DNA of 43,296 nt, taken from NCBI RefSeq assembly GCF_013385985.1, contig NZ_JACAOY010000006.1:478653-521948 (forward strand), in the 5' to 3' direction. A model generated the notes under the pieces. The model was not told the origin of the DNA, did no database searches, and was given only the letters and a program-made list of their open reading frames with translations. Shown in pieces: positions 2,440-5,917 of this stretch. Position 1 is the first letter of the stretch, and each line of letters starts with the position of its first letter. This DNA is from Pseudomonas sp. B6002. GTDB lineage: Bacteria > Pseudomonadota > Gammaproteobacteria > Pseudomonadales > Pseudomonadaceae. A program made the position numbers and the translations under genes.

Positions 2440-5049
2440 TTAGGCTTGAATCACCGGGATGTTGGCGCTTGCTGCGATTTTACGGAACTCGGCGATCTGG
2501 TCGAAGTTCAGGTAGCGGTAGACGTCACTGGCCATGGTGTCCAGTTTCGCTGCGTAGCCCATGTACTCTTCGACAGTCGGCAGGCGACCCAGGGTGGAGG
2601 CAACCGCCGCCAGCTCAGCCGAGGCCAGGTAGACGTTCGCGCCGTCACCCAGGCGGTTCGGGAAGTTACGGGTGGAAGTCGACACAACGGTCGAGTTCGG
2701 CTCTACACGTGCCTGGTTACCCATGCACAGCGAGCAGCCCGGCATTTCCATGCGCGCGCCAGCCTTGCCGTAGATGCCGTAGTAGCCTTCTTCGGTCAGT
2801 TGGTGAGCGTCCATCTTGGTCGGCGGCGACAGCCACAGACGGGTTGGCAGCTGACCCTTGACCTGTTCCAGCAGCTTACCGGCAGCGCGGAAGTGACCGA
2901 TGTTGGTCATGCACGAACCGATGAACACTTCGTCGATCTTCTCGCCGGCAACGCTCGACAGCAGACGGGCATCGTCCGGGTCGTTCGGTGCGCAGAGGAT
3001 CGGCTCGTTGATGTCGTTCAGGTCGATCTCGATGATTTCGGCGTATTCGGCGTCGGCATCGGCTTCCATCAGCTCAGGGTTCTTGACCCAGGCTTCCATC
3101 GCTTGGGCGCGACGTTCCAGGGTACGTGCATCGCCGTAGCCTTCACCGATCATCCAGCGCAGCAGGGTGATGTTGGAGTTCAGGTACTCGGTGATGGACT
3201 CTTTGGACAGCTTGATGGTGCAACCGGCAGCCGAACGTTCAGCCGAGGCGTCGGACAGCTCGAACGCTTGTTCCAGCGTCAGGTCGTTCAGGCCTTCGAT
3301 CTCCAGGATGCGGCCGGAGAAGGCGTTTTTCTTGCCTTTCTTCTCTACGGTCAGCAGACCCGACTGGATCGCGTAGTAAGGAATGGCATGAACCAGGTCA
3401 CGCAGGGTGATGCCAGGTTTCATCTTGCCTTTGAAGCGCACCAGGATCGATTCCGGCATGTCCAGTGGCATGACGCCAGTGGCTGCGGCGAACGCGACCA
3501 GGCCAGAACCGGCCGGGAACGAGATGCCCATCGGGAAACGGGTGTGGGAGTCACCACCGGTACCCACGGTGTCCGGCAGCAGCATGCGGTTCAGCCAGCT
3601 GTGGATGATGCCGTCGCCTGGACGCAGCGATACACCGCCACGGGTCATGATGAAGTCAGGCAGGGTGTGGTGGGTGGTCACGTCGATCGGCTTTGGATAG
3701 GCCGCGGTGTGGCAGAAGGACTGCATCACCAGGTCGGTCGAGAAGCCCAGGCACGCCAGGTCTTTCAGCTCGTCACGGGTCATGGGACCAGTGGTGTCCT
3801 GAGAGCCCACGGTGGTCATCTTCGGCTCGCAGTAGGTGCCAGGACGAACGCCTTTGCCTTCCGGCAGGCCGCACGCCTTGCCCACCATTTTCTGTGCCAG
3901 GGTGAAGCCTTTGCCGGTATCGACAGGCGCTTCAGGCAGCTTGAACAGGTCGGTCGGGCCCAGGCCCAGCTCTGCACGTGCCTTGTCGGTCAGGCCGCGA
4001 CCGATGATCAGCGGGATACGGCCGCCAGCACGGACTTCGTCCAACAGCACCGGGGTCTTCATTTCGAAGGTGGTGATGACTTCGTCGGTGCCGTGTTTGC
4101 AGACTTTGCCAGCATGCGGGTACAGGTCGATCACGTCGCCCATGTTCATGTTGGTAACGTCGAATTCGATTGGCAGTGCGCCCGCATCTTCCATGGTGTT
4201 GTAGAAGATTGGAGCGATCTTGCTGCCGAAGCAGAAGCCGCCGGCGCGCTTGTTCGGCACGTACGGAACGTCGTCGCCGAAGAACCACAGCACGGAGTTG
4301 GTGGCCGACTTACGCGACGAACCGGTGCCGACCACGTCGCCCACGTAGGCGATCGGGAAGCCTTGGCCGCGCATTTCTTCGATCTGCTTCATCGGGCCGG
4401 TCTTGCCTTGCTCGTCCGGCACAATGCCTTCGCGAGCCATTTTCAGCATGGCCAGGGCGTGCAGCGGGATGTCTGGGCGGGACCAGGCGTCAGGCGCAGG
4501 GGACAGGTCGTCGGTGTTGGTTTCGCCGGTGACCTTGAAGACGCGCAGGCTGATCTTGTCGGCCAGGGTAGGGCGGTTGCGGAACCACTCGCCGTCAGCC
4601 CAGGACTGGATCACGGCTTTGGCGTGTTCGTTGCCGTTACGGGCTTTTTCAGCCACGTCGTGGAACGCATCGAACATCAGCAGGGTGTGCTTGAGTTGGG
4701 CGGCGGCGACAGGAGCCAGGGTGGCGTCGTCCAGCAGCTCGACCAGGGTCACGATGTTGTAGCCGCCTTGCATGGTGCCAAGCAGTTCAACGGCGCGCTG
4801 TTTGCTGATCAGGGGGGAAGTGGCTTCGCCCTTGGCCAGGGCAGACAGGAAACCGGCCTTGACGTAGGCAGCTTCGTCAACACCTGGTGGAATGCGGTTG
4901 GTGATCAGGTCAACGAGGAATTCTTCTTCGCCAGCCGGAGGATTTTTCAGCAGCTCGACCAGGCCTGCGGTTTGTTCGGCGTTAAGCGGCTGGGGAACGA
5001 TACCCAGTGCTGCACGCTCTTCGATATGTTTGCGGTAGGCTTCAAGCAC
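2440..5049 (-). CDS. acnB: Aconitate hydratase B (2-methylisocitrate dehydratase)
   Basis: An 869-residue cytoplasmic TCA-cycle enzyme interconverting citrate, cis-aconitate and isocitrate; AcnB proteins also act on 2-methylaconitate. The order is the AcnB one: N-terminal helical HEAT-like domain (about 1-160), then the swivelling domain, then the cluster-bearing domains. The three [4Fe-4S] ligands are visible at Cys713 (FIGSCMTN) and Cys772/Cys775 (GCSLCMGN), offset by three from the E. coli enzyme. The GTG at 5049 is chosen as start because the family begins with the residues [12 protein letters not shown] and GAGGG sits 8 nt upstream; the ATG further upstream at 5076 would add nine residues absent from the family. 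It has a roughly 270-nt leader with elaborate secondary structure and a 10-11 nt complement to its own ribosome-binding site, suggesting post-transcriptional control. Confidence 0.97.
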
Positions 5050-5057
5050 AGTTATTA

Positions 5058-5067
5058 CCCTCATCAG
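5058..5067 (-). promoter_or_regulatory. acnB Shine-Dalgarno region with an upstream antisense match
   Basis: On the minus strand this reads CUGAUGAGGG; its GAGGG lies 8 nt before the GTG start. The exact reverse complement, CCCUCAUCAG, occurs in the same leader at 5198-5207. Adding the flanking U-A pair (5057 with 5208) makes 11 contiguous Watson-Crick pairs. This decides the GTG start and suggests the site can be masked. Confidence 0.75.
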
Positions 5068-5160
5068 TGGTCCCACGGGACGCTCATCCAGAAATGAACG
5101 GCACGCATGCGCTCGGGGGCTTTTTGGGCCGCAAAGCCAGCGCTGCCGGCATTCCTCACA

Positions 5161-5295
5161 GAAGCTGCTTTCAAAGTTTTACGCCTGCAGAGCGGAGCTG
5201 ATGAGGGTTGGCGCTGGCTATTTACCGCGTAAATAACCGTCGCCAACACCGCTCTGAAGGAACGACTGTGCTCGTGACGCTTTGAAAACAGCTTC
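5161..5295 (-). promoter_or_regulatory. Structured acnB leader RNA element (candidate cis-regulator)
   Basis: Four nested helices, described as minus-strand RNA. P1 pairs 5295-5280 with 5176-5161 (16 bp, one G-U). P2 pairs 5255-5249 with 5195-5189 (AGAGCGG/CCGCUCU, 7 bp). P3 pairs 5247-5241 with 5213-5207 (GUUGGCG/CGCCAAC, 7 bp). P4 pairs 5238-5229 with 5225-5216 (10 bp, one G-U, GCG loop). Both imperfect positions are G-U wobbles in the minus-strand transcript but would be A-C mismatches in a plus-strand RNA, so the structure belongs to the acnB messenger. An 11-nt one-sided bulge between P2 and P3 (5206-5196) carries nearly all of the anti-Shine-Dalgarno sequence. There is no U tract, so control would be translational rather than by attenuation. 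I do not recall a named family matching it. Confidence 0.7.
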
Positions 5296-5328
5296 CAATG
5301 GACTATTGGCGCCTTACAAGGCCGGATG

Positions 5329-5357
5329 ATTCTACGGCAAAAAATTTCTAAAGGTAA
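5329..5357 (-). promoter_or_regulatory. Sigma-70 promoter for acnB
   Basis: On the minus strand: -35 TTACCT (5357-5352), a 17-nt spacer and -10 TAGAAT (5334-5329). Transcription would start near 5322, giving a leader of about 270 nt that contains the entire structured element. The 394 nt between acnB and the divergent DUF1289 gene otherwise hold no gene. Confidence 0.6.
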
Positions 5358-5443
5358 GTTGCCTAACCAAGTTTGCGGGGTGATAGCCGTTAGACAAAGG
5401 GCTAACATGGCGCATTGTTTCGCTGATCGGCGTGTTGTTGCCC

Positions 5444-5917
5444 ATGTCCAACCAAACCATCAAGACCCCCTGCGTCGGCCTGTGCTCCACGGTTTACGGC
5501 GATCTGGTGTGCCGTGGCTGCAAGCGCTTCCACCATGAGGTGATCCAGTGGAATGGCTATAACGAGGAAGAAAAACGGGCGGTCTGGCTGCGCCTGGAGC
5601 AACTGCTGGTGCAGGTGATGGCTGGCAAGCTGGAGGTGTTCGACCCCAAGGCCCTGCGCGGGCAACTGGAGCAGCGCAAGATCCGCTTCGTGCCGCACCA
5701 GTCCGAGTACTGCTGGGCCTACCAGTTGATCGCTCGCGGGGCTCGGGTAATCAATAATCTGGAGGCCTATGGCATGGTGCTGTTGCCCGAGTTTCGCGAT
5801 TGGCCTTTGCCGGATTTGCGCGATGCCATTGATCGGGAGTTTTTTATCCTCTCGGAGGCGCATTACCAGCGCTACATCGCCCCCGGGTTTCTCAAGGATG
5901 CACTCAGCTCTTTGTAG
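5444..5917 (+). CDS. DUF1289 domain-containing protein
   Basis: A 157-residue soluble protein. The N-terminal third carries Cys10, Cys14, Cys23 and Cys26 (TPCVGLC and VCRGCKR) followed by a tryptophan and helix-rich stretch, the signature of DUF1289, probably a small zinc or iron-sulfur binding module. The remaining 100 residues have no motif I recognise. Start ATG 5444 follows a GTTGTTGCCC stretch with no good Shine-Dalgarno; an in-frame TTG four codons earlier is the alternative. The gene diverges from acnB. Its TAG stop (5915-5917) lies inside the first arm of the REP doublet that begins at 5913, so the repeat supplies the stop codon. Function unknown. Confidence 0.8.
   Translation: MSNQTIKTPCVGLCSTVYGDLVCRGCKRFHHEVIQWNGYNEEEKRAVWLRLEQLLVQVMAGKLEVFDPKALRGQLEQRKIRFVPHQSEYCWAYQLIARGARVINNLEAYGMVLLPEFRDWPLPDLRDAIDREFFILSEAHYQRYIAPGFLKDALSSL

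Follow-up and report, generated by a model that had tools for sequence, protein, structure and literature searches.

A conserved, structured RNA leader of acnB in the Pseudomonadaceae, with predicted pairing to the Shine-Dalgarno region and start codon

The acnB leader and its features

The window (the whole stretch of DNA that was analysed, 43,296 nucleotides) carries on its minus strand a gene for aconitate hydratase B, acnB, identified by a TIGR00117 match of 1538 bits against a cut-off of 1287, and preceded by a leader of some 270 nt. Its features, in the order in which they would be transcribed, are as follows.

5329..5334, minus strand: TAGAAT, a putative -10 box that is conserved across the genus (aligned upstream regions)
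5311..5323, minus strand: GC-rich hairpin at the 5' end, immediately following the predicted start of transcription (sequence and upstream alignment)
5280..5295, minus strand: P1 5' arm, 16 bp with 5176-5161, one U.G (5288/5168); near-invariant
5273..5279, minus strand: conserved CGUCACG, whose ACG can pair with the CGU of 5185-5177 (P1b), its CGUC lying opposite AAAA
5265..5274, minus strand: anti-start segment CGAGCACAGU, a 10-nt complement (one G.U) of 5052-5043
5249..5255, minus strand: P2 5' arm, 7 bp with 5195-5189
5241..5247, minus strand: P3 5' arm, 7 bp with 5213-5207
5229..5238, minus strand: P4 5' arm, 10 bp with 5225-5216, one U.G; two outer pairs in the covariation count
5216..5225, minus strand: P4 3' arm (sequence; the same two outer pairs counted)
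5207..5213, minus strand: P3 3' arm (covariation and sequence)
5198..5208, minus strand: anti-Shine-Dalgarno (anti-SD) segment ACCCUCAUCAG (complementarity and alignment)
5189..5195, minus strand: P2 3' arm (covariation and sequence)
5177..5185, minus strand: conserved GGCGUAAAA (alignment and sequence)
5161..5176, minus strand: P1 3' arm, near-invariant except at one G/A position
5082..5091, minus strand: conserved CUGGAUGAGC block with a GGA motif, upstream of P5 (alignment)
5070..5081, minus strand: P5 hairpin, GUCCC..GGGAC, directly upstream of the Shine-Dalgarno (SD) region; two-sided changes in four of five pairs across 58 rows
5057..5067, minus strand: acnB SD region CUGAUGAGGGU, also the best match to the PrrF sRNAs
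5043..5052, minus strand: start-codon region ACUGUGCUUG, containing GUG at 5049-5047
2440..5049, minus strand: acnB, with its GTG start at 5049-5047

A re-reading of the sequence bore out the initial annotation's description of the leader (5322-5050, minus strand) as a nest of four helices of 16, 7, 7 and 10 bp, in which both imperfect pairs are U.G wobbles in the minus-strand RNA (5288/5168 in P1 and 5236/5218 in P4), a one-sided bulge of 11 nt (5206-5196) separates P2 from P3, and a segment at 5208-5198 is the exact 11-nt complement of the SD region at 5067-5057. The first two bases of this anti-SD segment belong to P3, not to the bulge. The P5 hairpin adjoining the SD had been missed; in the window its loop is so short that only four of the five pairs can close. 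The promoter had been called good, which was an overstatement, as a scan of 5000-5500 for the sigma-70 consensus found none; the conserved TAGAAT at 5334-5329 nevertheless fits a predicted transcription start near 5322. Upstream of P5, the GGAU of the CUGGAUGAGC block (5082-5091, minus strand) is kept in most leaders of the genus, and the block resembles a GGA site for RsmA/CsrA proteins.

The folding energy of 5322-5040 beats all of 200 dinucleotide shuffles (z -3.15), the minimum-energy fold being the locked fold discussed below and not the nested P1 fold. With at most one mismatch, CTGATGAGGGT occurs twice in the window, at the anti-SD and SD sites, against an expectation of 0.55, and nine of 100 shuffles also reach two. 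Conservation is stronger evidence for the leader than these fold-energy and motif-chance figures.

Distribution and covariation of the leader

Of the 200 genomes searched in the genus, 198 matched a BLAST query of 381 bases that comprised the leader and about 100 coding bases; 130 of the 198, chosen among the stronger matches listed, were taken as sequence, and every one has both P1 arms. In 48 diverse leaders of the genus, core columns 1-31 (from the P1 5' arm to CACAGU) are invariant, as is GGCGUAAAACUUUGAAA on the 3' side. A covariance model built from these 48 (R1) detects one place in the genome of the window, together with the antisense echo of that palindromic place, and it matches 204 of 248 genomes of the family, in 17 of 19 genera. 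Among 244 genomes drawn from the order it matches 11, ten of which are members of the family, the eleventh match (G665) being weak. In a public genome set, at least 120 records carry the P1 motif; among the matches listed, all are titled Pseudomonas, Stutzerimonas or a higher-rank bin, and the acnB start lies downstream of the motif in 112 of 120, the remaining 8 ending too soon. Such a constant position upstream of a single gene, among the public records listed, is characteristic of a structured cis-regulatory leader RNA. The P1 motif has no exact match in viral contigs.

The extra R1 matches L169 (in G154) and L168 (in G665) were rejected as chance, both being weak and lying between two open reading frames on the opposite strand. 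L169 (G154:C14:206951-207090), which is intergenic with no acnB nearby, is one of two weak second matches, the other being G389:C1:1992163-1992302.

The annotators knew of no named element at this place, and for Rfam 15 this holds: the window has no match at the gathering cut-off, and a permissive scan of 601 bases gave four weak hits, all far below the cut-offs and none plausible. Among the open-licence papers listed, with motif surveys up to PMC2864571, we recognised no work on the Pseudomonas acnB leader; PA1787 and aconitase are not named in the main text of PMC8297930, nor is acnB in that of PMC3460626. The sucA-II and sucC motifs of Pseudomonadales, to judge from a table of PMC2864571, are likewise RNA motifs from comparative genomics that are named after genes of the tricarboxylic acid (TCA) cycle, but the genes are different ones, and the acnB leader has no Rfam match. 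It is a genuine and apparently unreported RNA family, conserved in most of the Pseudomonadaceae genomes sampled; a conserved RNA family newly described for a central gene, in a genus as widely studied as this one, has a value of its own.

Compensatory changes in related leaders, whose absence would by the initial annotation have refuted its reading, were found in P2-P5, above shuffled and slid controls. In the 48 genus rows (alignment A1, selected from the 130 leaders after L094 and L109 had been left out for their insertions), ten pairs and 42 cells have changed on both sides, where shuffles give 4.4 and 8.4; none of 500 shuffles reaches the observed level, and slid controls give at most 5 pairs and 14 cells. 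These changes sit in P2, in P3 and in the outer pairs of P4, and four of the five pairs of P5 have two-sided changes in the 58 family rows (alignment A2, 58 of 59 chosen leaders, L185 with its large insert being left out). A conserved structure with compensatory changes is what a structured cis-regulatory leader would be expected to have, and on this comparative evidence we take the helices of the leader to be RNA helices. The counts in this and the following section were taken over related sequences and are not independent events; those for the anti-SD, the anti-start segment, fold energy, motifs and the 58 rows also cover only leaders in which a text pattern recognised both P1 arms, a choice that favours those with P1 intact.

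P1 itself varies little. In the 58 family rows 99.8% of its cells are paired (a figure limited by the requirement for the arms), and 12 of its 16 pairs never vary; its 928 cells include 18 one-sided changes of the G.U type, two changes from G-C to A-U, and two that are unpaired (L183, L184). Pairing alone is insufficient to explain this near-invariance.

Insertions are seen in some leaders. In L094 and L109 the anti-start segment is separated from P2 by about 50 additional nt of hairpin-like sequence, with P1 and the rest kept, and L185 (1248-1567) has an insert of well over 100 nt within the P1 interior, where P1 and the SD are kept and the R1 match drops to noise (E 0.29).

Complementarity to the SD region, the start codon and PrrF

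Of 198 distinct leaders (a set that leaves out L168, L169, L174, L175, L176 and L200), 155 have a Watson-Crick run of at least 8 between anti-SD and SD. The longest run that joins the P1 interior to the SD region has a mean length of 9.3, where shuffles give 5.0, and for 159 of these leaders no more than two of 40 shuffles do as well. The genus group (125 leaders; in the motif and fold-energy counts it contains one or more rows from outside the genus, L157 among them) has the exact sequence CCCUCAUCAG in 107 of its members, and the other-genera group has it in 5 of 58; just 13 of these 58 have even 8 nt or more of it. The two segments have changed together in L174 and L176 (AAAGAGGG with CCCUCUUU), L175 (AAAAGAGG with CCUCUUUU), L199 (GAUGAGGU with ACCUCAUC) and L081 (AUGAUGA with UCAUCAU). 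The match is short elsewhere, at 5-6 nt in L083, L084, L085 and L091 and 3-5 nt in L170-L173 and L178-L184, and in many leaders of genus g15 it is just 5-6 nt around CCCUC. In the 58-row alignment 70.1% of anti-SD/SD cells are paired. Energy swap tests are weak on the anti-SD side, in g13 too, and the base after GAGGG (U/A) and that before CCCUC give no decisive covariation. As far as these alignments go, the anti-SD tracks the SD in a few lineages, and outside the genus many leaders have a short one or none.

The anti-SD is not always predicted to lie in a bulge. The predicted local folds of L131, L175, L201 and L218 place it in an apical loop; in L174 and L176 a hairpin with such a loop can be drawn by eye, and the local fold predicts another. 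An apical loop on a closed hairpin has good geometry for kissing, and it may be, although we think it rather unlikely, that the leader is a fixed attenuator, in which the rod formed by P1, P1b and P2 stays folded while the anti-SD (with the anti-start segment) kisses the ribosome-binding site as a pseudoknot, holding translation at a constant low rate that perhaps depends on temperature, with neither ligand nor protein. The preference for P1 over the nested locked fold in other genera (see below) also agrees with this, but a constant low rate needs no near-invariant 16-bp helix with conserved internal loops.

A second complementarity, new here and unnoticed in the initial annotation, places the segment at 5274-5265 against the start codon. 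The near-invariant CGAGCACAGU, a complement of the CGUGCUCG type, matches the start-codon region ACUGUGCUUG over 10 nt, and in the minimum-energy fold of the window's leader these two (5274-5265 and 5052-5043, including GUG) are paired, with the anti-SD/SD pairing nested inside. Both sequences are exact in all 125 leaders of the genus group. Among 183 distinct leaders (L168, L169 and L200 left out), 160 have an anti-start run of at least 10, G.U allowed, and in 170 the energy of the duplex is reached by no more than 5 of 100 shuffles, the 13 that fail being L176, L177, L179-L184, L212, L216, L218, L223 and L225. In the 58-row alignment 91.3% of the cells are paired. Compensation is seen as one change from G-C to A-U in L210 and L212, and in L175 the helix has been re-made (own pair -13.3, swapped -8.2 and -5.4 kcal/mol), though only partly so in L174 (-10.9 against -11.2 and -6.7 kcal/mol); swaps of partners clearly favour the native pairing in L175 alone, whereas for L174 and L210 one swap of the two does so, and L176 and L212 show no such preference. 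The start region of L318 and L320, CCGUGCUCG, faces CGAGCAC in the leader, complementary over 7 nt, with G-C replacing the G.U of the genus. The anti-start pairing may thus be said to rest mainly on conservation, with compensation in few lineages, and if it is accepted, most of the conservation of the CGAGCACAGU segment is accounted for without a ligand.

The SD is also a likely target in trans. The PrrF sRNAs (Rfam RF00444) carry UCUCCUCAUCAG, the same seed as the anti-SD of the leader (they share CCUCAUCAG, which the first reading of the sequence had overlooked), and they match the acnB SD best. The genome has two PrrF loci on different contigs, G000:C20:102174-102323 (L226) and G000:C16:12662-12809 (L227), and UCCUCAUCAG of both finds in 5067-5058 its best contiguous match in the leader (10 nt, one G.U; joint best for L227), so that there is seed complementarity at the ribosome-binding site, as in targets of sRNAs of the PrrF/RyhB type. 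The L227 copy has a second possible partner in the acnB start region (AAUAACUGUG). Folding of whole-length PrrF-leader duplexes was uninformative, 97 of 100 shuffled leaders being equal or better with both copies, and the search for runs was used instead. In P. aeruginosa, deletion of prrF raises acnB expression in low iron, and acnB is a PrrF-dependent gene responsive to iron and heme (PMC2851614, available portion); deletion of hfq raises the acnB transcript (PMC6237836, available portion). The PrrF sRNAs act in trans and are regulated by iron, whereas the copy in the leader is in cis and tracks the SD when the SD changes, as in g13.

Among 31 PrrF matches examined, some of them below the Rfam cut-off, 27 have CCUCAUCA, three (L238, L247, L256) have CUCAUCAG, with one C fewer, and one, L250 (899-1035, genome G234), reads CCUCAUUAG. 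G234 has a PrrF-like locus with CUCCUCAUUAG, an acnB SD reading UUAAUGAGGG (L182) and no clear cis anti-SD; in this one case, PrrF and the acnB SD seem from their sequences to have changed together. It is conceivable, then, that the complementarities within the leader are by-products, the SD and start being conserved for PrrF and for translation, and P1 being a DNA operator pair or an mRNA-stability stem. PrrF does match the same SD best, the L250/L182 case is of the kind expected, and the arms of P1 form an inverted repeat. We nevertheless consider this highly improbable. The one-sided changes in P1 are G.U in the minus-strand RNA, and in g13 (L174-L176) the acnB SD (AAAGAGGG or AAAAGAGG) has left the PrrF seed and the leader has tracked it, while PrrF there keeps CUCAUCAG. 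P1 as the operator of a transcription factor was rejected, because the genome has no site with 0-1 mismatch to the 16-mer outside the two P1 arms; with up to three mismatches there are 81 sites, against 47 for a reversed control, these being counts without context.

Alternative folds and the control of acnB

The two locking pairs are nested with respect to each other, but cross P1, P1b and P2. As both locking segments lie inside the P1/P1b/P2 rod, locking must either open the rod, giving two states, or make a pseudoknot. In 123 leaders of the genus group the median energy difference is 2.4 kcal/mol in favour of the locked fold over the P1 fold, and the locked fold is the lower in 91% (ViennaRNA, by which a pseudoknot cannot be scored); in 57 leaders of other genera the P1 fold has the advantage, with a median of 5.6 kcal/mol, and the locked fold is the lower in 28%. 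This comparison used 180 of 183 leaders, those longer than 330 nt being left out. The ribosome-binding site would be sequestered in one of two predicted alternative folds, which are near balance in the genus group only.

From these features it seems likely that the acnB leader is a cis-acting, autoinhibitory translational leader with a double lock, on the SD and on the start codon, in which some factor is proposed to set the balance. The anti-start (5274-5265) and anti-SD (5208-5198) segments would form two nested pairings, with the start codon and the SD respectively, that exclude ribosomes; the ON form would be the rod with a free ribosome-binding site, and the OFF form would be doubly paired. 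On full locking the rod would either open, as a two-state switch, or stack against the lock as a pseudoknot, and since P1 is transcribed first, an open-then-locked order is possible. The balance would be set by a factor acting on the near-invariant P1/CGUC-AAAA region, and PrrF, pairing with the same SD from outside, would add control by iron. A cis-acting translational switch had been proposed in the initial annotation; the part of that proposal concerned with cis control able to hide the ribosome-binding site is well supported on comparative grounds, by the covariation, by the anti-SD that tracks the SD in a few lineages and by its apical-loop placement in others, while the repression, the switching and its factor are matters that we infer.

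Translational riboswitches and autoregulated pseudoknot leaders use alternative helices to hide or free the SD; the acnB leader would differ in covering the start codon besides the SD, and it is not known to have a ligand. It might be imagined that citrate, isocitrate or another small molecule is bound by the P1/CGUC-AAAA/GGCGU core and decides between the two folds, since the core has near-invariant unpaired and flanking bases, the alternative folds are nearly isoenergetic in the genus group, and the leader serves the single gene of a metabolic step. That it is found at acnB only (one place in the genome of the window, and all 112 of the public records, among the matches listed, that are long enough), that pairing already accounts for the anti-start portion of the conserved core, and that L178-L184 keep P1 but have a degraded core, make such a metabolite riboswitch quite improbable.

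A protein could also be the factor of the double lock, and would then be no alternative to it: AcnB itself, or another RNA-binding protein such as Hfq or RsmA, may read the GGAU block or the conserved region of P1. A helix whose sequence does not vary is well suited to recognition by a protein, the GGAU block precedes P5, and apo-AcnB of E. coli binds its own mRNA, there at the 3'UTR (PMC4150767, available portion); the main text of a paper on RsmN targets, on the other hand, makes no mention of acnB. We regard protein control as a tentative possibility.

The nearest published mechanism is that of E. coli acnB, in which RyhB acts at the ribosome-binding site and apo-AcnB at the 3'UTR (PMC4150767, available portion). 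The gene, the iron logic and the use of an sRNA on the ribosome-binding site are common to both, but the protein site in E. coli is in the 3'UTR, whereas here there is a structured 5' leader of ~270 nt with an anti-SD and an anti-start segment. One might go further and liken this leader to the iron-responsive element, as its bacterial 5' equivalent: a double lock, bistable and provided with its own copy of the PrrF seed and a mask for the start codon, in which apo-aconitase (or an iron or citrate signal) reading the near-invariant P1 would decide between locked and open while PrrF competes for the same site; this fuller version strikes us as unlikely.

The gene acnB encodes an early enzyme of the TCA cycle, and its control by iron in Pseudomonas has, in the literature covered, so far been explained by PrrF. 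If the double-lock reading is true, a family-wide leader that covers the SD and start codon, and carries the PrrF seed, adds a second layer, in cis, and the setting of aconitase level under changes of iron or citrate becomes directly testable.

Two genera (g5 and g3) do not have the element, although acnB and a similar SD are present. In g5 (L257-L263) there is another long acnB leader, extending about 330 nt before acnB, with conserved blocks of its own and a hairpin of the GUUCC/GGAAC type that adjoins an SD with the same CUGAUGAGGGU.
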